A DNA stretch of 43,026 nucleotides, from positions 1 through 43,026 of the forward strand of contig JBCCIS010000043.1 of assembly GCA_039028155.1 (NCBI GenBank). Direction: 5' to 3'. How positions within the stretch are numbered: position 1 is the stretch's first letter; each line of letters opens with the position of its first letter. This document shows positions 29,989 through 43,026 of this stretch, one piece after another. Below the pieces are notes generated by a model that was not told where the DNA came from, searched no databases, and was given only the letters and a program-made list of their open reading frames with translations. The translations under genes were made by a program, and so were the position numbers. This DNA is from Pseudomonadota bacterium. Its GTDB lineage: Bacteria; Pseudomonadota; Alphaproteobacteria; SP197.

Positions 29989-31263
29989 TTAGTCAGGCCG
30001 GTTGTCGCGTTCGATGTCCGCTAACTGTCTGCCTTGCATGGTGGCCTCAAAAGCGTGGAGGCGTTTGTAGATCGACATCATCTCGACGATCGTTGTCCAG
30101 GAGTTGATGAGGTACTGGAACGAGCTTTCGACACGGCCGAAGGCGCGCACAATCTGCTGCAGGATACCGAGCGTGATCGTCGCGGAGACGATTGTCGGCC
30201 CAAGCGCAAAATAGGGTACGAGTACGCCGACCTGCAGGTAGCTGATGCGTACCAGGTTGAAGTAAAGGTAGTTCAGATAGAGCCGGAAATAGTTGCGTCG
30301 GACGTCGGCGAACAGTTGATCCAACGTCGGTGGCTGCGCGCGGCTGGGATCATCTTCGCCGAAGACAAGCTCTTTGCGATAGGCCGCCTCGACGCGTTGG
30401 TTGCGGAACTCCAGGCCCGGTAGGCGAATGCCGGCAAGCGCCACGAGACCGGTGCCGAACACAGACCACACGATAGCGATAACGACAAGCGCCTGGGGGA
30501 TTTCGCCGATGATCGGTATCTCTTTGACGTGCTCCGACAGAGCCCAAAGAATCGGCAGGAAAGCGATCAGCGTCATTAGTGCATCGATCAGACTGACACC
30601 TAGGCTCTCCATGATGGCGGCAAAGCGCATGGTGTCTTCCTGAACGCGCTGCGACGCGCCCTCGATATGGCGCAGTCTCTGCCAGTTGGCGACGTAATAG
30701 TCGTTCATCGCCGTACGCCAGCGGAAGATGAAGTGGCTGACGATGAACCGATTGATGGAGGCGACGATGACAAAGACCATCGCGATCTCCAGGAAGTCCA
30801 GCAACAGCAGGTAGTACTCTGTCAGACTGATCGAGCCAGGCTCGCTTAGAGCCAACTGGACGGCATCATAGAAACGGCCAAACCAGTTGTTGATCATGAC
30901 GTCGAGCTGAACCAGGAACCACGTAATGAAGATGATGATCGACGCCACGACGACCGACCACCAGAACCAGCGATGGGGCAAGAAGCGGTGAACCAGAAAG
31001 GCGAAGATGGCACCAGCGACGATCATGTACTGGTAAAGCCAGACATCGACGGCGAACAGGCGTTGGTTGGCGTAGGCATCCATCGCCATCTCGTCGGCCT
31101 CGGGCGGCGGGGCTTCGGGATAGCCGTAGCCAATCAGTCCGCCCAGGCTGAGCGACTCGCCGAGATCGGCGCCGAAGATGAACCAGATGGCCATCGACAG
31201 CCCGGTCCACACAAGAGCGGCGGGGAAAAAGATGCGGGGATTGGGAAAGAACGAATGAAACAC
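29989..31263 (-). CDS. sbmA: SbmA/BacA-type peptide transporter
   Basis: Proton-driven inner-membrane importer of peptides and peptide antibiotics, with a membrane domain like an ABC exporter but no ATPase. It closely follows E. coli SbmA: SFFPNPRIFF at the start, FVSHFIFRWRTAMNDYYVANWQRLRHIEGASQRVQEDTMRFA in variant form, ELPIIG-like EIPIIGEIP, LPGLEFRNQRVEAAYRKELVFGEDD, and FQYLINSWTTIVEMMSIYKRLHAFE. From the GTG at 31261-31263 it is 424 residues, close to SbmA's 406; a GAGG eight bases before this GTG supports it. Another GTG at 31318-31320 would add 19 residues. Compared with SbmA there is a longer loop after helix 1. It is divergent from a GNAT gene. Confidence 0.92.
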   Translation of the reverse strand: MFHSFFPNPRIFFPAALVWTGLSMAIWFIFGADLGESLSLGGLIGYGYPEAPPPEADEMAMDAYANQRLFAVDVWLYQYMIVAGAIFAFLVHRFLPHRWFWWSVVVASIIIFITWFLVQLDVMINNWFGRFYDAVQLALSEPGSISLTEYYLLLLDFLEIAMVFVIVASINRFIVSHFIFRWRTAMNDYYVANWQRLRHIEGASQRVQEDTMRFAAIMESLGVSLIDALMTLIAFLPILWALSEHVKEIPIIGEIPQALVVIAIVWSVFGTGLVALAGIRLPGLEFRNQRVEAAYRKELVFGEDDPSRAQPPTLDQLFADVRRNYFRLYLNYLYFNLVRISYLQVGVLVPYFALGPTIVSATITLGILQQIVRAFGRVESSFQYLINSWTTIVEMMSIYKRLHAFEATMQGRQLADIERDNRPD

Positions 31264-31954: not shown

Positions 31955-33157
31955 TCAGGCCTGCAACCGGTCGACGACCAGGTTCTGGAAATGATGCACG
32001 GCGCTTTCCCAGTAGGCCGAGAACCGTGTCTCCATGCCGAGCTCGTCGCGCTGGGCGTGCTTGGTCTGGACCTCGCGCACCATGGGGAAGTCCTGCTCGC
32101 CGACCTTGATCCAGGCGTCGCGCACCGCCTCGCGGGTCGCGCGGTGTTCGTCGTCCGTCGCCGCCTCGCCGATGAAGTGAAAGGCGCGGCGCGTCGGCGT
32201 CCGATCATGGGCCATCGGATAATAGATGTTGGTGACGACGTGGTCGTCCAGGACGGAGACGATGGCGTTGGGCACGATAAAGAAGAGCACGAGCTCCCGC
32301 GAGAGCCCGTCTTCACCCACCTTCTTGCCGTTGTAATGGGGGAACATCGGCAGAGTGTCGCCGGTCAGCACTTCTGTCTCGCGTCGGCTGGCGATCGAGA
32401 CATAGGTGTTGCCGCCCCGCTCGCCACGGAAGACGCCGCTCCTGGGTCCGATCTGAGGGTGAACCCAAGGCAGGTGGTAGTCCTCGCATCCGGTCTCGAT
32501 GGCGAGCTTCCAGTTGCCGTCGAACTGCGCCTCGGTCGTCAGGCCTGAGAACTGCACGACCGAGAGGTCGTGGTCGGGGACACGCTCGTGAACCGGGCGG
32601 ATGAAGTCCTCGAACGGCTCGGCTTGGCCGTCGATGTTGACGAAGACGAAGTGCATCCAGGTCTCACTGCGCACCTCGCGCAAGCCCAGCGTTGCCTTCT
32701 CGATGCCCGGCTGCTCGGCGCTGACCTTGCCGGTCGTCTCGTCGATGCCACCGATATCCGGCGTCGCGATCAGCCGGCCGTTGAGGTCATAGGTCCAGCC
32801 GTGCCAGGGACACTGCAGCCTTTGGGCCTTCTTGCAGGGCTCGGTCAGCACGGTCATCGACCTGTGCCGGCAGATATTGTGGAACACCTTGACCTCGCCC
32901 TGGCGGTTGCGTGCCACGATGAAGTCCCAACCGGCAATCGAAACCGGTTGGGCGTCGCCCGGCTCGGCAACGTCCGACTCATAAGCGATCGCCATCCAGC
33001 CGCGCGGGAAAATCATCTTGCGCTCCAGCTCGAAGAAGTCGGGGTCGGCATAGACTCGGCCCGGCAGGCCCTCGGCCTCGCCGACCGGACGGCGCAGGCA
33101 CGCGACCTGTTCGGCGCTGACAAAGTCATCGAGATTGAGCTGTTTCATGATGGTCAT
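31955..33157 (-). CDS. Rieske non-haem iron oxygenase, large subunit (bridging-Glu type)
   Basis: A 400-residue oxygenase component that would need a separate reductase. The Rieske cluster ligands are Cys96, His98 (NICRHRSM) and Cys116, His119 (CPWHGW). The mononuclear iron site has His228 and His233 in CEDYHLPWVHP, and the residue three before the first His, which bridges the Rieske and iron centres, is Glu225 rather than the usual Asp. Bridging Glu is known in carnitine monooxygenase CntA and relatives acting on quaternary amines. It overlaps the BetI-like TetR gene by four bases. The substrate is unproven. Confidence 0.88.
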   Translation of the reverse strand: MTIMKQLNLDDFVSAEQVACLRRPVGEAEGLPGRVYADPDFFELERKMIFPRGWMAIAYESDVAEPGDAQPVSIAGWDFIVARNRQGEVKVFHNICRHRSMTVLTEPCKKAQRLQCPWHGWTYDLNGRLIATPDIGGIDETTGKVSAEQPGIEKATLGLREVRSETWMHFVFVNIDGQAEPFEDFIRPVHERVPDHDLSVVQFSGLTTEAQFDGNWKLAIETGCEDYHLPWVHPQIGPRSGVFRGERGGNTYVSIASRRETEVLTGDTLPMFPHYNGKKVGEDGLSRELVLFFIVPNAIVSVLDDHVVTNIYYPMAHDRTPTRRAFHFIGEAATDDEHRATREAVRDAWIKVGEQDFPMVREVQTKHAQRDELGMETRFSAYWESAVHHFQNLVVDRLQA

Positions 33158-33774
33158 GGGGTCGTCTCCTCTTCCGGTGCCGTATCGGCGGCAAACATGG
33201 CGAGCGTGCTGCTGATCAGTTGCGCGCGCCGCTCTGGCGAAAAGCGCTTGGGGTCAAGCGCGGTCCGCACGAATATGCCCTCTCCCAGGGCGACCAGCTG
33301 ATCGGCGGTGTCGTCGGGGTCCAGGTGGCGTGGCAGATCGCCGACCGCGATAGCGTCCTCGACCTGCTCGCGGACCAAGCCGCGATAGCGGTCATAGAAC
33401 GACATGTTCAGCGCACGATGGCGATCATCGATGGTCGCGCTGGACCAAAAGCCGAGAAGCGCGGCGACACGCCCGGACTTGAGCTCGCCCGGCGCCAGCG
33501 CTTCGATCGTCGCGCGTACCCGCGGCATGCCCGCGGGCAAGACCGCCAGGGTCTCCGTCAGACGTTCAGCGGTCTGCTCGGCGATCAGCTGATAAGCGAA
33601 TGCCATGAGTTCACCGCGGTCGCGGAAATAGTGGTGAATAACCCCGGTCGTAAAACCGGCCTCACGCGCGATCTCGCGCAGCGTCGCGCCGTCAACGCCG
33701 TGCTTGGCGATCACGCGCCATGTCGCTTCGGCGACCTCTTCGCGGCGGGCATCATGGTTCACGACCTTAGGCAT
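33154..33774 (-). CDS. TetR/AcrR-family regulator, BetI-like
   Basis: A 206-residue repressor. The HTH is RREEVAEATWRVIAKHGVDGATLREIAREAGFTTGVIHHYFRDRGELMAFAYQLI, close to BetI (RREQLIEATLRTIAEHG-like, with GVIHHYF recognition helix). The C-terminal half (LKSGRVAALLGFWSSAT, DPDDTADQLVALGEGIFVRTALDP) also has BetI style. BetI binds choline, and this protein regulates neighbours that look like quaternary-amine oxygenases, so a trimethylamine-type ligand is plausible (inference). It is followed by the 400-residue Rieske gene (four-base overlap) and is divergent from the 352-residue Rieske gene, with a palindrome in the gap. Confidence 0.88.
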   Translation of the reverse strand: MPKVVNHDARREEVAEATWRVIAKHGVDGATLREIAREAGFTTGVIHHYFRDRGELMAFAYQLIAEQTAERLTETLAVLPAGMPRVRATIEALAPGELKSGRVAALLGFWSSATIDDRHRALNMSFYDRYRGLVREQVEDAIAVGDLPRHLDPDDTADQLVALGEGIFVRTALDPKRFSPERRAQLISSTLAMFAADTAPEEETTP

Positions 33775-33817
33775 GGACGAGCGACCCTTTCATCGGCTAT
33801 GACATCAGCCAGTTTTT

Positions 33818-33834
33818 TAACATGTCACATGTTA
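33818..33834. promoter_or_regulatory. Perfect 17-base palindrome, probable TetR operator
   Basis: TAACATGT-C-ACATGTTA is exactly symmetric about position 33826 and lies in the 124-base gap between the divergent TetR and Rieske genes. It is 44 bases upstream of the TetR start and 65 upstream of the other. On the minus strand, TTGACT (33856 to 33851) and TAACAT (33834 to 33829) form a plausible promoter with a 16-base spacer, with the -10 box inside the palindrome, so binding would repress the tetR-Rieske unit. An effect on the plus-strand gene is also likely given the distance. Confidence 0.65.
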
Positions 33835-33898
33835 TAAATAAATCTATCGAAGTCAAACACCGATGTGCCTATGACAAGGTTTATGTGAGGAAGTCGCC

Positions 33899-34957
33899 AT
33901 GTCCGCGCCGCAAACCCTGACCGACACGCTGCCCGCCGCGTGGTACCACGATCCCGATCAGTACGAGCGTGAGCGCCACTTGATCTTTGCGCGCAACTGG
34001 TGGCTGGTTGGGCGCGAGGCCGAGCTCGATCGGGCCGGCGCCTATCTCACAGCCAATGTGGCGGGCTGGCCGGTGTTCGCCGTGCGCGACCGCGTCGGCG
34101 GCTTACGCGCCTTCCACAATGTCTGCCGCCACCGCGCAGGGCCCCTGTTCACCGACGCCGGCGGTCGCTGCCAAACCCTGCGCTGCCAGTATCACGGCTG
34201 GATGTATGGCTTTGACGGCAGCCTCAGAACGGCGCCGGGCTTCCCCGATTCAGGCGCCCTCGACAAATCGAAGTTCGGGCTGTTTCCCGTGCGCGTCGAA
34301 ACCTGGCGGGGGCTTGTCTTTGTCTGTCTCGAAGAAGCCGCGCCGGACCTCGCAGCCTGGATGGGCGATGTCGATCGCCTGGTGGATGACTACCCGGCGA
34401 CGGAGACGTTTGTCTTTCTTGACGAGACGACGATCGCCGGCGCCTGCGACTGGAAGGCCTATGGCGACAATTCGTGTGAAGGTTACCACCTGCCCTTCGT
34501 TCACGGAGCGCTGAATAAGGCGGTCTCCGATGCCGACATCCGGACCTACGAGAATGGCGGCTTCGTTGGTTTCCATGTCGACTACGGCGGCACGTCGGAC
34601 GTGCGCGCCAACAAGGGGCTGTGGATCTATAAGTACCCCGGCCTGTTGCTGCACTACTCCGACCGCGCCCTCAACATCGAGCAGGTCGAGCCCGACGGCT
34701 CAGGTGCCATGACCATCCGCTCGTGGTACTGGTTTCCGGCAGGCGAGGAGGACTATGGCCGGTCCTACATCAAGGATTCCATCGCCGTGATGGACGAAGA
34801 CATGGGAGTGTGCGTAAAGGTTCAGAAGAACCTGGAAGCCGGCATCTACCAGTCCGGCAAGCTGTCACCGGAAAAGGAGCCCGGCACCATCTTCTTCCAG
34901 GCTCTCATCCGCGAGGCGCTGGAGGCCGATCCGCCGCGCCTCGGTTTGGCCGCATGA
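33899..34957 (+). CDS. Rieske non-haem iron oxygenase, large subunit (bridging-Glu type)
   Basis: A 352-residue oxygenase component, shorter than its neighbour at 31955. The Rieske ligands are Cys76, His78 (NVCRHRAG) and Cys96, His99 (CQYHGW). The iron site has His197 and His202 (EGYHLPFVH), with Glu194 in the bridging position, again Glu instead of Asp. The C-terminal half is the usual helix-grip fold, and an Asp in VMDEDMG may be the third iron ligand. No reductase or ferredoxin gene is in the window. It overlaps the following GST gene by four bases (ATGA), so both are produced together. Substrate: possibly a quaternary amine or betaine-like compound (inference). Confidence 0.88.
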   Translation: MSAPQTLTDTLPAAWYHDPDQYERERHLIFARNWWLVGREAELDRAGAYLTANVAGWPVFAVRDRVGGLRAFHNVCRHRAGPLFTDAGGRCQTLRCQYHGWMYGFDGSLRTAPGFPDSGALDKSKFGLFPVRVETWRGLVFVCLEEAAPDLAAWMGDVDRLVDDYPATETFVFLDETTIAGACDWKAYGDNSCEGYHLPFVHGALNKAVSDADIRTYENGGFVGFHVDYGGTSDVRANKGLWIYKYPGLLLHYSDRALNIEQVEPDGSGAMTIRSWYWFPAGEEDYGRSYIKDSIAVMDEDMGVCVKVQKNLEAGIYQSGKLSPEKEPGTIFFQALIREALEADPPRLGLAA

Positions 34958-35610
34958 CTACACCCGTCCTCTATATCGGCAACAAAAACTATTCGTCGTG
35001 GTCGCTCAGGCCGTGGCTGGTCTTCGAGCATTTCGGTCTGCCGTTCGAGGAAAAACTGATTCCGTTGTTCGACGACAAATGGGATGCGGCAATCGCTGAG
35101 GTCTCACCGTCGCACAAGGTGCCGTGCCTGGTCGACGGCGATCTGACCATCTGGGAGACCCTGGCGATAATCGAGTATGCCACCGATCGCCATCCCCAGG
35201 CCGCTATCTGGCCAGACGGTTTCGAGGCACGCGCGGTCGCGCGCAGCGTTGCCTGCGAAATGCATGCGGGTTTTGCCGACCTGCGTTCGGCGATGCCGAT
35301 GAACATCCGCAAGTCCCTGCCCGGCCGTGGCCATACGCCCGGCGCGCTGAACGATGTCGCTCAGATCCAGGAACGGTGGAACCGATGCCGCGGCGATTAC
35401 GGCAGCGGCGGCGACTTCCTGTTCGGCGCCTTCTCGGCCGCCGACGCCATGTACGCGCCGGTCGCCAGCCGACTGTTGACCTATGGTGTCGACCTCGACC
35501 CCGTCTCGTCTGCCTATGTCGATGCGATCGTAGCGCTGCCGGCCATGCAGGCCTGGAGCGAGGCTGCGCGCCAGGAACCCTGGGTCATCGCCGAAGAAGA
35601 ACTGGACTAA
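34954..35610 (+). CDS. Glutathione S-transferase family protein
   Basis: A 218-residue cytosolic GST. The N-terminal thioredoxin-like domain starts with the subgroup signature IGNKNYSSWSLRPWLVFEHFGLPFEE, with Ser in the catalytic region, then the cis-Pro segment SHKVPCLVDGDLTIWETLAIIEYATD; the helical C-terminal domain follows. This is the type that in E. coli includes YfcF-like proteins with peroxidase or dehalogenase-type roles. The ATG at 34954 overlaps the stop of the Rieske oxygenase gene, so a link to that reaction, such as removing a reactive product, is possible. The frame extends to 34723 but that part re-reads the Rieske gene. Confidence 0.9.
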   Translation: MTTPVLYIGNKNYSSWSLRPWLVFEHFGLPFEEKLIPLFDDKWDAAIAEVSPSHKVPCLVDGDLTIWETLAIIEYATDRHPQAAIWPDGFEARAVARSVACEMHAGFADLRSAMPMNIRKSLPGRGHTPGALNDVAQIQERWNRCRGDYGSGGDFLFGAFSAADAMYAPVASRLLTYGVDLDPVSSAYVDAIVALPAMQAWSEAARQEPWVIAEEELD

Positions 35611-36931: not shown

Positions 36932-37912
36932 CTAGCTCTTCTTCGACGCCACGTTCTCGCCCATCAGGCAGAGGATCTCCCACATCATCTGGGCGCCGGT
37001 CAGCGCGGTCTGGCCCGAGGGATCAAACGGCGGCGAAACCTCGACCACATCGCCGCCAACGATGTCGAGACCGCGCAGGCCGCGCAGCATCTGTTGCGCC
37101 TCAAAGGTGGTGAAGCCGCCGACCTCAGGCGTTCCCGTGCCCGGCGCATAGACCGGGTCCAGGCCGTCGACATCGAAGCTGATATAGGTCGGGCCGTCGC
37201 CGACCACCTCGCGCGCCTTGGCGATCACGGCATCGATACCCATAGCGTAGAGGTCCTCGATATGAATCACGGTCATGCCGGATTCATAGCTGAACGCCCA
37301 CAATGGCTCGGCCGGCCCACGAATGCCGATTTGGATCGTGCGTTTGGGATCCAGCACACCATCTTCGACAGCAACCTTGAACGGTCCGCCATGATGGTGT
37401 TTGTGGCCGAACAGTTCCGGCCCTGTGTCGCAATGGGCGTCGAAGTGGATCAGACCGACGGGCCGATCGGCGGCGATCGCCTTCATGATTGGCAAGGTGA
37501 TCGAATGGTCGCCGCCTGCGGTCAGCGGCAGAATGCCGGCGGCATGGACCTTCTTATAGAACGCCTCGATGTCATCCATGGCGCGCTCAAGGCTGTAGAC
37601 ACCCTCGATCAGAACGTCGCCCAGATCTGCCGATTCGGCGATGTGATAGGGCCGAATGCCGGTCTGATGGTTGGTATGGCCCATCAATGTCGACTGTTCG
37701 CGCAATCCCCGCGGGCCATGGCGCGCGCCGGGACGATTGGTCACGCCGCCATCGAACGGGACGCCGATCAAGCCGATCTCGACCCCATCCCAGTCGCCGT
37801 CGGCACGCAAGGGACGGCGCATGAAGGTCGCGACACCGGAGTACCGCGGACGATAGATCTCGCCTGACGGCATCAACAATTCGCGAACATCATCCTCCTG
37901 GTCCTTACCCAT
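36932..37912 (-). CDS. speB: Agmatinase-family ureohydrolase
   Basis: Manganese enzyme that hydrolyses agmatine or a related guanidino compound to urea and an amine. All ligands are present in the 326-residue protein: His136 in GGDHSITL, Asp158, His160 and Asp162 in HFDAHCDTG, and Asp247 and Asp249 in SFDVDGLDP. The N-terminal FDGGVTNRPGARHGPRGLRE and the EVGGFTTFEAQQMLRGL segment fit agmatinase, but guanidinobutyrase and guanidinopropionase share these features, so the substrate is not certain. Polyamine metabolism would also fit mtnP at 4505. It is divergent from the DUF427 gene and preceded by a 64-base gap. Confidence 0.9.
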   Translation of the reverse strand: MGKDQEDDVRELLMPSGEIYRPRYSGVATFMRRPLRADGDWDGVEIGLIGVPFDGGVTNRPGARHGPRGLREQSTLMGHTNHQTGIRPYHIAESADLGDVLIEGVYSLERAMDDIEAFYKKVHAAGILPLTAGGDHSITLPIMKAIAADRPVGLIHFDAHCDTGPELFGHKHHHGGPFKVAVEDGVLDPKRTIQIGIRGPAEPLWAFSYESGMTVIHIEDLYAMGIDAVIAKAREVVGDGPTYISFDVDGLDPVYAPGTGTPEVGGFTTFEAQQMLRGLRGLDIVGGDVVEVSPPFDPSGQTALTGAQMMWEILCLMGENVASKKS

Positions 37913-37976
37913 GCATCTGGCCCTTTTTCAACGTGTCGGTCGCGCCAATATAGACTCTAACAGCGGAGAAGACGCC

Positions 37977-38759
37977 ATGACCGAGTTGTCACGCATCGCC
38001 AATCCGGCGCCCGGCTTCCAGGCGCATCCGAACTATCAGATCGAAATCCTACCATGCGCCAAACGCCTGCGCGCCATGTTCGGCGGCCAAACGGTGTTCG
38101 ATACGCTCGATGCGGTCATCTTGCGGGAGACCGAACACCTGCCGGTCTATTACGTGCCGCGCGCCGATGCCGACATGGCGCTGCTGACCGGCAGCGACCA
38201 CACGACCCACTGCCCATTCAAGGGCGACGCGTCCTATTACAGCCTGGCGCATGGCGACCGCGTGGCGGAGAACGCGGTCTGGACCTATGAAACGCCGTTC
38301 GACGAGTGCCGCTCCATCAAAGGTTACCTGGCGTTCTATTGGGACCAACTCGATCACTGGTACGAAGAAGACGACGAGGTCCACGTACACGCCCGCGATC
38401 CGAAGGCGCGGATCGACATCGTCGCGAGTTCGCGTCCGGTTCGCGTCGAAGCCGCCGGCGAGACCATTGCGGAGACAACGCGCGCGCGCTTCCTGTTCGA
38501 GACCGGTCTGCCGGTCCGCTACTACATGCCACTGGAAGACGTACGCCAGGATCTTCTTATCGCGTCGGATACAAAGACGCGCTGCCCGTACAAGGGCACG
38601 GCCAGTTATCACCACGTCAAGATCGGCCAAACCGTAATCAACGATGCGGTCTGGCACTACCCCGATCCACTCGACGAAGTCGGCCGGATCACCGGCTATC
38701 TCTGTTTCTATCCGGAAAAAGTCGGCCGTCTCACCGTCGACGGCAAGGACGTACCGTAA
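37977..38759 (+). CDS. Protein with two tandem DUF427 domains
   Basis: A 260-residue protein made of two copies of the roughly 95-residue DUF427 fold. The repeated core is visible twice: VYYVPRADADMALLTGSDHTTHCPFKGDASYY (about 57-88) and VRYYMPLEDVRQDLLIASDTKTRCPYKGTASYH in variant form (about 180-212), each followed by an AVWxY and GYLxFY motif (residues 100-121 and 224-245). Cys79 and Cys203 occupy equal positions. Function is unknown. The ATG at 37977 follows GGAGAAGACGCC, a good ribosome site; a longer frame from 37911 is not needed. It diverges from the agmatinase gene and converges with the MFS gene, six bases apart. Confidence 0.87.
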   Translation: MTELSRIANPAPGFQAHPNYQIEILPCAKRLRAMFGGQTVFDTLDAVILRETEHLPVYYVPRADADMALLTGSDHTTHCPFKGDASYYSLAHGDRVAENAVWTYETPFDECRSIKGYLAFYWDQLDHWYEEDDEVHVHARDPKARIDIVASSRPVRVEAAGETIAETTRARFLFETGLPVRYYMPLEDVRQDLLIASDTKTRCPYKGTASYHHVKIGQTVINDAVWHYPDPLDEVGRITGYLCFYPEKVGRLTVDGKDVP

Positions 38760-38764
38760 GGCGT

Positions 38765-39964
38765 TCAGTCCGACGTCCGCGCGTCCGACTCATTGCCGAC
38801 CACAAGCGGCGGCGCGCTGGAGATACGCCGCAACAACACGCCCAGGAAGATGGCGCAGAAGATAACCCCGACGATCGGCATACCGACAGGGCCCAGCGCG
38901 TCCATCGCGCCGCCGCTGATGCTCGGTCCGATGACGCTGCCGATGGCCCACAAGAACATGAAACTGGTCGTCGCCCCGACCAACTGCGCGCTGCGGAAAC
39001 GTCGCCCCATGGCGGTCAGCGCAATGGTATAGAAACTGCCCAGCGTTGCCCCCATCAGCAACAAGGTCGGATAGATTAGGACGGGATCGGTCACCAGAAA
39101 CGGCAGCGCCGCGATGGTGAGCAGCGTCACGAACGTGCAGGCGGCCATCAGACGCCGTGTCTCCACACGGTCGGCAAGAAAACCTACCGGTATCTGCGCG
39201 ATGATCGCGCCCACGACAAAGATCGTCAGCATCAGTTTGGCTGTATCTTCGCCGACGCCCATATCAACACCGTAGACCGGCAAAAGCGACAAGGTCGCGC
39301 TGTCGATCAGGCCGAACATAAGGCCCGCCATCATCAGCGACGGCGCGATGGTGAAGAAATGGATAATGCGCGCCCGATGATCACCCTGTAGCGCCGCCTG
39401 CGCGCCGCCTGCGACCGCGAGCGGCACCAAGCCAACCAACACAATCCCGATGCCGATATAGAGCGCCGTCCAGGTCTGCGTGTCCAGGACCGTCAGCATC
39501 ATCGGCCCCAGACCAAAGCCGCCGTGCTGGAACATGCCGGCGACACCGATCAGACGGCCGCGCCGGCGTTCGTCGGCAAGCTGGTTGATCCAGACATCAC
39601 CGGCGGTAAACGCGAGTTCGGCCGACAGGCCCAGCAGAAACCGGATCGGAAACCACAGCCAGACCGACGGGAAAACCGGCAGCAAGGCAAGCGCCACGGC
39701 CATGCCGACCATGCCGGCGGCAATAACGCGTTTGACGCCGAAGCGCCGGATCAGCCGAGGCGCCAGAAGTGCCAGGAACATCACCGCCAGCATCTGGACG
39801 GACGCGTTCAGCCCGTTCAGCAAGGGCGAGACACCCTGATGATGCAGAGTCAGCGCCAGGAACGGATAGCTGATGCCCAACGTCACCGTGACGGTGGTCG
39901 TCGCCGCGATACAGGCGATGATACCGCGGGTGCGCTGGCCTGATGACAGGGTAACCGTACTCAT
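38765..39964 (-). CDS. MFS transporter, YcaD-like
   Basis: A 399-residue major-facilitator-superfamily protein with 12 predicted helices and the usual central loop (QAALQGDHRARIIHF). The first helices resemble YcaD-type proteins (LGISYPFLALTLHHQGVSPLLNGLNASVQMLAVMFLALLAPRLIRRFGVKRV, containing the loop-2 R-R-x-G motif). A second such loop is seen in PVGFLADRVETRRLM. Substrate unknown. It is divergent from the dimethylformamidase-like gene, and the 168-base gap holds short inverted repeats. No periplasmic or energy-coupling partner is encoded nearby. Confidence 0.9.
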   Translation of the reverse strand: MSTVTLSSGQRTRGIIACIAATTTVTVTLGISYPFLALTLHHQGVSPLLNGLNASVQMLAVMFLALLAPRLIRRFGVKRVIAAGMVGMAVALALLPVFPSVWLWFPIRFLLGLSAELAFTAGDVWINQLADERRRGRLIGVAGMFQHGGFGLGPMMLTVLDTQTWTALYIGIGIVLVGLVPLAVAGGAQAALQGDHRARIIHFFTIAPSLMMAGLMFGLIDSATLSLLPVYGVDMGVGEDTAKLMLTIFVVGAIIAQIPVGFLADRVETRRLMAACTFVTLLTIAALPFLVTDPVLIYPTLLLMGATLGSFYTIALTAMGRRFRSAQLVGATTSFMFLWAIGSVIGPSISGGAMDALGPVGMPIVGVIFCAIFLGVLLRRISSAPPLVVGNESDARTSD

Positions 39965-40132: not shown

Positions 40133-42376
40133 ATGTTGAAGAAGAAACTCGCGGCCTATGCCGACGAGATCTCCGTCGCGCCAGGCGACACGATCCGCAT
40201 CATGGCAAGCGCAGACGACGGGGTATCCAGCTATACGGCCAGCATCGTGCGCCTTCTCTCCGGCGACGACCAGCCGGGCGGTCCCGGCTATCGCGACGAC
40301 GTGCTCGACGTGCCCGCCAACGGCAGCCACGCGGCACGCCACCAGCCGACGTGGCCCGGCGCCTATGGCGCGGTCGGCCATAACAAGGCGTTCGACAAGC
40401 TGGAGAGCTTTTCGCTGCAATGCCTGTTCTGGCCGACGACGCCGGAACGGCCGTGGAAGTCGATCGTCTCCAAGTTCGCCGAAAGCAATGAGTTCGGCTG
40501 GGGTCTCTTCACCAATGGCGACGGGCACGCCTGTTTCTTCGTCGGCGACGGCAACGACCATCGCACAGCCCGCGCCGTCGCGCCGGAACCACTGATCGCG
40601 CGCCAATGGTATCTGCTGACCGGCAGTTACGACGCCGAAACCAAGACGCTTAAGATCGTCCAGCGCATGATCAATCCCGTGCCCACCATTCAGGCGTGCT
40701 CAGAGGCGACGGTCCCGGCGCCCGAGATGGGCAACATCCACAACCGGGAAGCCGCCTTTATGGTCGGCGCCTACAACAACCAAACCGAAAGCGGCACGTG
40801 GTTTCCCGGCGGCCACGTGAACGGCAAAATCGAACGCCCGGTCTTGATCAACCGCCTGCTCGACGACGACGAGAGCGCCGCCCTGCTGACCGGCGCCCTG
40901 CCGAAGAAACTTGCCAGGGACGCCGTGCTCGCCTGGGATTTCAGCCAGGAGATCGGCAGCGACAGGCTGGTCGATATCTCCGGCAACAAGCTGGACGGTG
41001 AGGCCGTCAACCTGCCGATCCGCGCGGTGCGTGGCCACAACTGGGACGCCACCGAGTTCAACTGGACCAAAGCGCCGGAGCAGTGGGGCGCCATGCACTT
41101 CGTCGAAGACGCAATCTACGACTGCGGTTGGCGGCCGGATTTCGAGGTGACGATCCCGGAAAGCGCCAAGAGCGGCCTTTATGCCGCCAAGCTGGAAGCC
41201 GACGACAGCGCGCCGGAGTTCGTGCCGTTTGTCGTGCGCCCGCCGGCGGGCAAAACGACGGCGTCGCTGTGTGTGCTCGTGCCGACCGCGAGCTATCTGG
41301 CCTATGCCAATCTGGACGAGCAGATTGCCTCGGCGGAGTACGACTATCAATTCAACCGAACGCCACGTCTGGGTCCCGACGACCTCCATCAGCAGGAACA
41401 TCCGGAGTTCGGTGTCAGCATGTACGGCCTGCACGCCGACGATACCGGCCCGCATTACAGCTCGCGGCTCAGACCGATCGCCAATCTGAGCCCCCAGCAC
41501 AATTCGCTGTGGCAGATGAGCGCGGACATGCATCTGATCGCCTGGCTCGAGCACGAGGGCATCGCCTATGACATGGTGAGCGACGAGGATCTCGACCGCG
41601 AAGGCGCGGACCTGCTCGCCCGATGGCCGTGTGTCATGACCATGAGCCATCCCGAGTATTATTCAACCCGCATGCTGGACGGCATTCAGGACTATACGCG
41701 CCAGGGTGGCCGGCTGATGTACATGGGCGGCAACGGTTTCTATTGGCGCGTCGCATTCCGTAACGACAAGCCGGGCGTCATGGAGATGCGCCGGGCCGAA
41801 GACGGCTCGCGCTCCTGGATCGCCGAGCCCGGCGAGTACCACATGAGCTTCACCGGCGAGCTGGGCGGTCTGTGGTGGCGTGGCGGCCGCACGCCCCAAT
41901 CAGTCGTCGGTGTCGGTTTCATCGCCCAAGGCTTCGACTGGTCGAGCCCCTATCGCCGACAACCCGGCAGCCACGACCCGCGCGCTGCCTGGATCTTCGA
42001 CGGCCTGGGCGAGGACGAACTGATCGGCGACTTCGGTCTGCTCGGCGACGGCGCGGCGGGCTGGGAGCTCGACTGTGCCGACCCCTTGCGCGGCACGCCG
42101 CCGCACGCCCTGGTGCTGGCCAGCTCCTTCGACCACTCCGATACCGTCTTGATGGTCAACGAGGAGCTCGGCCACATGCACCCGATGATCTATGGCTCGC
42201 TGCAGCCCCGGGTGCACGCGGACATGGTGTTCTTCGAAACCGACAACGGCGGCGCCATCTTCTCGACCGGCTCCATCGCCTGGGTCTCGGCCTTGCCGTG
42301 CAAGAACTTCGACAACAACGTAGCGGCCATCACGCGTAACGTGATCAAGCGCTTTTGTGACAAGATACCATTCTGA
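40133..42376 (+). CDS. N,N-dimethylformamidase beta-subunit-like protein
   Basis: A 747-residue protein related to the large subunit of dimethylformamidase, an iron amidohydrolase that cleaves dimethylformamide. Regions: a beta-rich start (1-75), a laminin-G-like domain (about 85-275, with SLQCLFWPTTPERPWKSIVSKF and GHVNGKIERPVLIN), and a large C-terminal domain (about 320-747) that begins VLVPTASYLAYANLDEQ. In the known enzyme iron is held by two Tyr and one Glu; candidates here are Tyr388 or Tyr391, Tyr431 and Glu508 (SHPEYYS), with similar spacing. The small alpha subunit is not in the window. The ASCH gene follows 18 bases later. The natural substrate is unknown. Confidence 0.87.
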   Translation: MLKKKLAAYADEISVAPGDTIRIMASADDGVSSYTASIVRLLSGDDQPGGPGYRDDVLDVPANGSHAARHQPTWPGAYGAVGHNKAFDKLESFSLQCLFWPTTPERPWKSIVSKFAESNEFGWGLFTNGDGHACFFVGDGNDHRTARAVAPEPLIARQWYLLTGSYDAETKTLKIVQRMINPVPTIQACSEATVPAPEMGNIHNREAAFMVGAYNNQTESGTWFPGGHVNGKIERPVLINRLLDDDESAALLTGALPKKLARDAVLAWDFSQEIGSDRLVDISGNKLDGEAVNLPIRAVRGHNWDATEFNWTKAPEQWGAMHFVEDAIYDCGWRPDFEVTIPESAKSGLYAAKLEADDSAPEFVPFVVRPPAGKTTASLCVLVPTASYLAYANLDEQIASAEYDYQFNRTPRLGPDDLHQQEHPEFGVSMYGLHADDTGPHYSSRLRPIANLSPQHNSLWQMSADMHLIAWLEHEGIAYDMVSDEDLDREGADLLARWPCVMTMSHPEYYSTRMLDGIQDYTRQGGRLMYMGGNGFYWRVAFRNDKPGVMEMRRAEDGSRSWIAEPGEYHMSFTGELGGLWWRGGRTPQSVVGVGFIAQGFDWSSPYRRQPGSHDPRAAWIFDGLGEDELIGDFGLLGDGAAGWELDCADPLRGTPPHALVLASSFDHSDTVLMVNEELGHMHPMIYGSLQPRVHADMVFFETDNGGAIFSTGSIAWVSALPCKNFDNNVAAITRNVIKRFCDKIPF

Positions 42377-42394
42377 GGGAGTCGGACCATCACC

Positions 42395-42754
42395 GTGCAC
42401 CGCATGCAATGGTTCCAATTGGCGCTGATCGACCAGATCATCGACGGCAGCAAGACGGCGACCGTGCGGTTCGTCGCATGGAGCGAAGGTCTTGATGCGA
42501 ACAATACCGCGCTTCATGTCGGCGCGACCTATGATGTGATCGACCGCGACGGCATGACACGATGCCGGGTGCGCTTGACCGGCATCGAACTCGTCCGCTG
42601 GGACGCCATTCCTGAACGGTTGTGGCGGCGCGACCCCGCTGTCTCAGGCGAGATCAGCCTGGAGGCGTTTCGCGCGGATCACTGGGACTACTTTCACCAG
42701 CCGTCCGACGACTTCGCGTTTCTCGGCGTCTACTTCGACCGAGTCGATGGCTGA
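42395..42754 (+). CDS. ASCH-domain protein
   Basis: A 119-residue protein of the RNA-binding-like ASCH fold: IIDGSKTATVRFVAWSEGL matches the ASCH GxKTxTxR motif, VGATYDVIDRDGMTRCRVRLTGIELVRWDAIPERL gives the barrel strands, and WDYFHQPSDDFAFLGVYFDRV the end. ASCH proteins may act on or bind RNA; some are amidohydrolases for acetylcytidine (YqfB), and this setting beside an amidase-like protein makes that worth considering. The start is a GTG at 42395 or the ATG at 42404. Its TGA is in the same frame as the next gene. Confidence 0.75.
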   Translation: MHRMQWFQLALIDQIIDGSKTATVRFVAWSEGLDANNTALHVGATYDVIDRDGMTRCRVRLTGIELVRWDAIPERLWRRDPAVSGEISLEAFRADHWDYFHQPSDDFAFLGVYFDRVDG

Positions 42755-42763
42755 GTGGCGTCC

Positions 42764-43026
42764 ATGACGCCTTTCCGTTTCTATCTGGACTGGCATGTGG
42801 ACTGTCAGTTCGCCGGTCTGATCTGGGCGCGCGAACAGGGCCTCTACGGCGAAGCCGGCCTGGAGGTCGACCTGGTCGCCCCGGAACGCCATCCCGAGCG
42901 CACGGTCCTCGACCTGATTGCCGACGACCCGTGTTCGGCGGGCTGCTGCGAAGACAATCTCGTGGTCCAACAGGGCGCCGACGGCAAGCCGGTGCGCGCC
43001 ATCGGCGCCATGTTGCAGGAAACGCC
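42764..43026 (+). CDS. THI5/NMT1-like substrate-binding-type protein, 5' part (runs off window)
   Basis: Only the first 87 codons are present, open to the window edge. The sequence FRFYLDWHVDCQFAGLIWAREQGLYGEAGLEVDLV followed by GADGKPVRAIGAMLQET matches the NMT1/THI5-like periplasmic-binding fold, where bacterial members bind pyrimidine, taurine or nitrate-type ligands. There is no signal peptide: an in-frame TGA at 42752-42754 means the earliest possible start is GTG 42755. Cysteines at 14, 57, 61 and 62 are unusual in such proteins. It may be a cytoplasmic relative of the yeast THI5 enzyme or a solute sensor. Substrate unknown. Confidence 0.75.
   Translation, partial: MTPFRFYLDWHVDCQFAGLIWAREQGLYGEAGLEVDLVAPERHPERTVLDLIADDPCSAGCCEDNLVVQQGADGKPVRAIGAMLQET

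Follow-up and report, generated by a model that had tools for sequence, protein, structure and literature searches.

The best described relative of the first enzyme considered here is N,N-dimethylformamidase (DMFase), whose iron site is described as unique; in the published account the iron ligands are Tyr399, Tyr440 and Glu521, the catalytic residues are His519 and Asn547, and the large subunit alone is inactive (PMC7686228). Members of the DMFase family need not act on N,N-dimethylformamide (DMF), as shown by the acetamiprid amidase AceAB, a DMFase-family enzyme without DMF activity (PMC11573777). Among proteins with an ASCH domain, YqfB of E. coli is reported to be inactive without Lys21, Thr24 and Arg26 (PMC6972931; PMC9599836), and roles for Lys62 and His66 of THI5 are given in PMC10848271. 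Here we analyze three adjoining genes at the right end of a 43,026-nucleotide stretch of DNA from an alphaproteobacterium of the SP197 lineage (contig JBCCIS010000043.1, assembly GCA_039028155.1; the whole stretch is called the window below), which encode a DMFase-type amidohydrolase, an ASCH protein and a protein with the ThiY/THI5 fold. The DMFase family, its iron site, family members without the small (alpha) subunit and hydrolases of the ASCH type are already known. Their combination was not found in the literature searched, which yielded no paper combining any two of ASCH domain, THI5 and dimethylformamidase.

The first gene encodes a 747-residue protein that matches the Pfam domain DMFA2_C (PF20254, E 8.4e-95) and whose top match in the PDB is the large subunit of DMFase, 6lvb (residues 6-743, E 2.3e-160, 539 bits), with N-acetyl-(R)-beta-phenylalanine acylase second (E 2.2e-121, 410 bits). 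It is 39-40% identical to the DMFase large subunit, DmfA2, over its whole length, and the resemblance to that subunit proposed in an earlier interpretation of the same DNA, made without database searches (the sequence-only reading), was thus borne out. In the alignment with 6lvb, Y399, Y440 and E521 of DMFase correspond to Tyr391, Tyr431 and Glu508, and its catalytic pair, His519 and Asn547, to His506 and Asn534. The iron ligands suggested earlier had been Tyr388 or Tyr391, Tyr431 and Glu508; the latter two stand, and of the first two candidates only Tyr391 does. All five residues are invariant in 105/105 deduplicated full-length relatives, a set obtained from 146 matches by dropping 30 shorter chains, which left 116 chains of at least 690 residues, and then deduplicating. 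Because of this invariance, the match to the iron site, as judged from the alignment, is real but is a signature of the entire family.

The window protein and its closest relatives (the window clade, monophyletic with support 1.0 and present in 8/16 genomes sampled from the same taxonomic family) differ from the remaining relatives at three positions near the ligands. Gly432 (DMFase D441), Met504 (G517) and Trp498 (Y511) are present in all 8 members of the clade and absent from the other 97 relatives, which mostly have Asp, Gly and Tyr, respectively, at these columns; their closeness to the ligands along the chain suggests that the three residues line the pocket. As a control, clade-specific switches were counted in an equal-sized Chloroflexi clade, and the 22 found in the window clade against 20 there are not unusual. 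Cys380 (DMFase A388) is not unique to the window clade. At the constriction of the pocket formed in DMFase by Phe693 of the neighboring subunit, the window protein has His681, in a column that is variable (Phe in 19/105, His in 28/105). In another genome of the family, one alpha gene precedes a tandem array of three DMFase-type large-subunit genes (G004:C12:44700-51906).

We searched for the alpha subunit with dmfA1 of the Paracoccus aminophilus plasmid pAMI2 and an iterated profile. For 56/105 large-subunit genes an alpha homologue is the adjacent upstream gene, and for 4 more it is found farther upstream; the profile matched nothing in the window or the 15 loci of the window clade (8 proteins), in agreement with the sequence-only reading, which had noted that the small subunit was missing beside the large one. 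The sister of the window clade is a Chloroflexi clade with alpha in 8/8 loci (support for the sisterhood 0.78), so that the tree is more simply read as a loss of alpha by the window clade. These likely sisters, which carry an alpha and beta pair, come from Chloroflexi/Dehalococcoidia metagenome genomes (L044-L051). In all, 45/105 relatives, including the 8 of the window clade, were counted as alpha-free; this is an upper bound because many of the others have only ~1.5 kb of upstream sequence or sit in tandem arrays, and 18/45 lack alpha over 3.5 kb or more of upstream sequence, an Acidobacteria group among them. Since other alpha-free members exist (the Acidobacteria group and, by the look of its PDB entries, the acylase), the alpha-free state alone is not new. 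Acidobacteria-type DMFase homologues of 761-845 residues without an alpha neighbor were seen in loci L086, L092, L096, L098, L101, L108, L109, L111, L114 and L115.

The genome of the window itself is not devoid of alpha homologues. One adjoins each of three large-subunit paralogues (L004, L005 and L006), of which two exceed the window protein slightly in identity to DmfA2 (L004 40.5% and L005 41.8% identity, against 39.4%; the incomplete L006 was excluded). The sequence-only reading had held that an alpha subunit encoded elsewhere, next to a second and closer dimethylformamidase, would speak against it, and part of that picture is therefore present. Help in trans from the alpha homologues of these paralogues is possible. 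The proposed single-subunit amidohydrolase keeps its intact iron site and its lack of an adjacent alpha gene on one side, and has the alpha genes of three same-genome paralogues on the other.

The second gene follows after 18 bases if the GTG at 42395 is taken as its start, as noted earlier, and after 27 with the conserved ATG at 42404. Its product passes the Pfam cut-off for ASCH with 25.1 bits against the required 21.2; PDB sequence searches with the protein and with its profile found no ASCH chain. On a structure model built from 7 orthologues (mean pLDDT 76), Foldseek placed a Lactobacillus ASCH protein first and E. coli YqfB second, and VIA-align placed YqfB first (Z 9.2, rmsd 3.0, 95 residues, 21% identity). 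K17, T20 and R22 align with YqfB Lys21, Thr24 and Arg26 and are invariant in 11/11 orthologues, and Asp77, also invariant in 11/11, stands at YqfB Glu74 in one MAFFT alignment, a position that hhalign fell short of. From the residues kept, amide hydrolysis by this protein appears plausible. The earlier suggestion of an ASCH amide hydrolase is to that extent strengthened by the retained Lys, Thr and Arg, with Asp apparently in place of Glu, and acetylcytidine is no more than a candidate substrate.

The third gene starts at an ATG 9 bases past the ASCH stop (42764), or at an alternative GTG (42755) that abuts it, in accordance with the spacing of 1-10 bases reported before. It is truncated by the end of the window, which is an entire contig (C43) of a 118-contig, 5.3-Mb genome, and its remainder lies at the beginning of contig C53 of the same genome; the two contigs overlap by exactly 141 bases and the joined frame gives a stop-free protein of 297 residues. 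The protein matches Pfam NMT1/THI5-like (E 2.9e-9), and by sequence the closest PDB entries are 4nmy, a substrate-binding protein (SBP) with bound thiamin (2.2e-14), and 3ix1, which binds formylaminopyrimidine (9.8e-11). The structure model, built on 6 orthologues (mean pLDDT 76), has ThiY (3ix1; Z 28.2, rmsd 3.3, 290 residues), 4nmy (27.4) and Thi5 (26.1) as its nearest folds, and the fold matches also include the SBP-fold enzymes MqnD (Z 18.2), DszB (17.8) and MqnA (16.1). An invariant Cys14 opens helix 1 (model and 11 orthologues). C27 of DszB and Cys11 of MqnD, cysteines named in PDB titles, may lie in the same loop as Cys14.

No hydrophobic leader was found in 11/11 orthologues of the third protein, whose chains begin at strand 1; the highest N-terminal 12-residue hydropathy mean was 0.41-1.06, in a simple test rather than with a dedicated predictor. 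Rightward of the trio, 12 kb of C53 hold 10 more called genes; all were scanned, and none proved to be an ABC or thiamin gene (thiamin genes elsewhere in the genome were not searched). No ABC permease or ATPase was found among the window genes scanned between 31477 and 39964. Because the leader is lacking and ABC genes are missing from the next 12 kb, the third protein is not an ordinary transport binding protein. The sequence-only reading had proposed a dedicated binding protein and, as a check, a look to the right for ABC transporter or pyrimidine-salvage genes; this search weakens its binding-protein role. A periplasmic transport protein was rejected as an identity for the third protein on the grounds of no leader and no ABC genes nearby, and the hydroxymethylpyrimidine phosphate synthase THI5 was rejected because Lys62 and His66 are not kept, their aligned positions holding Met/Cys and Leu.

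The family sample comprises 16 genomes, and all genomes sampled at the level of the order fall within this family. An orthologue of the ASCH gene was found in 11/16 and the third gene in the identical 11. Seven genomes hold all three genes, and in every one they are adjacent, in the same order and on one strand, with 20-27 bases between the amidohydrolase stop and the ASCH start at MQW; the adjacency of the trio in related genomes, on which the earlier proposal depended, was therefore found. Between the genus of the window and the others, identity is ~70% for the amidohydrolase and the ASCH protein and 44-47% for the third protein, the fastest-evolving of the trio. Low pairwise dN/dS between the window and its nearest relative, genome G001 (0.08 for the large subunit, 0.12 for ASCH and 0.25 for the third gene) suggests purifying selection on all three, as expected for working genes. 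Orthologues of the ASCH and third genes occurred only beside the window clade among 127 sequences scanned, namely the window and loci L001-L126, which had been chosen for amidohydrolase or alpha matches.

Farther afield, a search at class level (240 genomes, limit 1e-8, at most 19 candidates scored per genome) returned one distant ASCH relative outside the family, and a search at phylum level (398 genomes, limit 1e-7, at most 11 candidates scored per genome) returned no ASCH relative besides the window, both with so few first-look candidates per genome that weak relatives could be missed. The distant relative (L144 5156-5533), from another alphaproteobacterium, lies directly behind a gene for an FAD monooxygenase and near a gene for an Asp/Glu/hydantoin racemase, which suggests a catabolic setting. 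Relatives of the third protein outside the family were found in 6/240 genomes of the class, two of them in frames of ~550 residues (L138 and L139).

The account of the locus that we tentatively favor is a modular, cytoplasmic three-gene set for the breakdown or salvage of small N-acylated (formyl- or acetyl-type) amines, beside an MFS transporter. The first protein would be an Fe(III) amidohydrolase of the DMFase large-subunit family, acting with no dedicated alpha subunit, and it probably cleaves an amide other than DMF because residues near its intact iron ligands are unique to its clade. The ASCH protein, with a YqfB-like Lys/Thr/acid arrangement, would likely be a second small amide hydrolase. 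The third protein would stay in the cytoplasm and, having the ThiY/THI5 fold there, would more likely be an SBP-fold enzyme or a ligand carrier than a component of transport. The ASCH and third proteins form a unit able to exist without the first, the three genes are presumably transcribed together, and the divergent MFS transporter that adjoins them, and that also adjoins the pair in two genomes lacking the amidohydrolase, may serve the set.

A number of observations weigh against this account. Strict adjacency when all three genes are present is not matched by a significant link in their presence across genomes: the ASCH and third genes occur as a pair without an adjoining amidohydrolase in 4/16 genomes (G008, G010, G011 and G014), and one genome (G002) has the amidohydrolase but no match anywhere to the other two, so that co-occurrence gives a one-sided Fisher p of 0.14 (7 genomes with both, 1 and 4 with a single component, 4 with neither). 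A three-protein pathway is thus not obligate. In G002 the amidohydrolase stop is followed by 511 bases that hold another open reading frame, and the single ASCH-family match of that genome fails to match the profile of the ASCH subfamily. General synteny within a single family may account for the conservation seen outside the trio. A search for promoter-like sites gave none, and a weak terminator-like hairpin of 6 pairs (42757-42771) closely follows the ASCH stop and covers the third-gene start, for which reason co-transcription of the latter is not assured; terminator-like hairpins number 3 in the stretch against 1.9 expected by shuffling. The ASCH and third-protein models are of only moderate confidence, and EF3133 and the Lactobacillus ASCH protein, whose function is not established, reach Z 8.5 and are effectively tied with YqfB. 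YqfB His70 is not kept (Leu73 stands there in the same MAFFT alignment), and the sequence link to YqfB is weak (hhalign probability 30%, 56 columns). His681 of the amidohydrolase is shared with the alpha-carrying sister clade and is therefore uninformative on the loss of alpha.

Many of the same facts fit the possibility that the genes are neighbors without a common pathway, the amidohydrolase having landed in, or been lost from, the gap between the MFS gene and the ASCH and third-gene pair. This we regard as the main rival, though less likely than the favored account. In its favor are the separate occurrence of the pair and the amidohydrolase, the non-significant co-occurrence, the hairpin, the direct adjacency of the MFS gene to ASCH in G008 and G011, where no amidohydrolase adjoins the pair, and the presence of several family members per genome: 15/16 genomes of the family have 3-10 matches each to the amidohydrolase at E <= 1e-100, and one has none. 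The trees bearing on gain or loss of the pair and the amidohydrolase are small and were rooted on the genus of the window by choice. What speaks for a shared role is the tight same-strand spacing kept in 7/7 genomes despite divergence to ~70% and 44-47% identity.

A stronger form of the favored account, that one imported compound is processed sequentially by an alpha-free DMFase-type iron amidohydrolase, an ASCH hydrolase like YqfB and an SBP-fold enzyme, together a new pathway for N-acyl amines in the cytoplasm, appears unlikely to us. In such a pathway Cys14, at the presumed pocket of the third protein, could possibly be catalytic, by analogy with other SBP-fold enzymes.

Salvage of the thiamin pyrimidine is improbable. 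Here the amidohydrolase would deformylate N-formyl-aminomethylpyrimidine, which is an N-alkyl formamide like N-methylformamide, and the ThiY-like protein, whose nearest PDB sequence relatives are those given above, would bind the pyrimidine in the cytoplasm; DMFase cleaves both N-methyl- and N-ethylformamide (PMC7686228). Among seven sources scanned, however, no riboswitch, for thiamin pyrophosphate or otherwise, passed the Rfam gathering thresholds, the sole match being a tRNA in L166; the genes called to the right, in 12 kb of C53, include none for thiamin, the THI5 residues are not kept, and the pair persists without the amidohydrolase. A pyrimidine or other heterocyclic substrate, as the sequence-only reading had it, is unsupported rather than refuted, since only the family names point to it. 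It is about equally improbable that the 13-kDa ASCH protein replaces the 15-kDa alpha subunit by docking on and stabilizing the large subunit, as the inactivity of the DMFase large subunit alone, the position of ASCH directly behind an alpha-free large subunit in 7/8 genomes and the alpha gene of the likely sister clade might suggest, since 4 genomes have ASCH but not this large subunit, G002 has the reverse, other alpha-free groups have no such ASCH protein, and ASCH retains catalytic-type residues.

The features of the window are collected in Table 1. Among the orthologous loci examined, the MFS and DUF427 genes are present in 7/7 and the ureohydrolase gene in 6/7. The ureohydrolase is nearest to 3-guanidinopropionase (E 3.8e-109) and not to agmatinase among solved structures. 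Farther left, a TetR gene is flanked by two Rieske oxygenases with distant similarity to glycine betaine monooxygenase, along with a glutathione S-transferase (31955-35610), an arrangement partly found in relatives, and a gene for an SbmA/BacA-type peptide transporter (29989-31194, E 4.5e-146) lies ~9 kb left of the trio. On C53, genes for DUF5680 and polysaccharide-deacetylase-family proteins follow the trio on the opposite strand, and then come genes for a TPR protein, a fatty acid desaturase, MlrC, ChaC, CorA, an amidase and two GFA proteins. The polysaccharide-deacetylase-family gene (L137 1240-2139; 3rxz 2e-56, PuuE allantoinase 4e-20) is found in 6/7 orthologous loci, and it and an amidase-signature gene (L137 9232-10875) may encode additional C-N hydrolases on this side. 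Genes in the comparison loci were called with a custom codon-bias script, and the poor calls in L140-L143 were left unused.

Table 1. Positions in the window of the three genes, their key codons and the neighboring genes.
Feature	Position	Strand	Basis or occurrence
Homologue of the large (beta) subunit of DMFase, 747 aa, without an alpha gene beside it	40133..42376	+	ORF, Pfam, PDB match
Tyr391 codon, first iron ligand (DMFase Y399)	41303..41305	+	alignment, column check
Tyr431 codon, second iron ligand (DMFase Y440)	41423..41425	+	alignment, column check
Codons of His506 (catalytic, DMFase H519), Pro507 and Glu508 (iron ligand, DMFase E521)	41648..41656	+	alignment, column check
ASCH protein, 116 aa from conserved ATG 42404 (119 aa from GTG 42395)	42404..42754	+	
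5′ part of signal-less NMT1/THI5/ThiY-fold protein (297 aa in full, rest on C53)	42764..43026	+	
MFS transporter gene, divergent from the trio	38765..39964	-	
Ureohydrolase, nearest solved relative 3-guanidinopropionase	36932..37912	-	in 6/7 orthologous loci searched
Tandem DUF427 protein	37911..38759	+	in 7/7 orthologous loci searched

The window clade is of interest beyond this locus: it is a natural group without adjacent alpha, three paralogues in the genome of the window have kept theirs, and the contrast offers a direct test of the role of the small subunit. The locus also gives the ASCH subfamily a repeatable partner in the signal-less ThiY/THI5-fold protein, so that the functions of both become approachable.

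Compared with the known systems, the first protein shares with DMFase (DmfA1A2, 6lvb) homology over the full length of the large subunit, the two Tyr and one Glu ligands and the catalytic His and Asn, and differs from it in having no alpha gene nearby, in His681 for F693 and in the clade-specific residues near the ligands. The N-acetyl-(R)-beta-phenylalanine acylase (8huy, 8i59 and 8i5a) belongs to the same family and scores lower than DMFase; it looks like a one-polypeptide member because none of the chains in its three PDB entries resembles the small subunit of DMFase, whose only matches were six entries of DMFase itself. No paper on this acylase turned up in the literature searched. AceAB, in contrast to the window protein, is a two-subunit enzyme. 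The ASCH protein compares with the N4-acetylcytidine amidohydrolase YqfB in keeping K, T and R, with D apparently for E, and is set apart from it by the lost His70 and an identity of 21%. The third protein has its nearest fold and sequence relatives in ThiY (3ix1), the thiamin SBP (4nmy) and THI5 (4esx); unlike ThiY it has no leader and no ABC partners nearby, and unlike THI5 it lacks Lys62 and His66.

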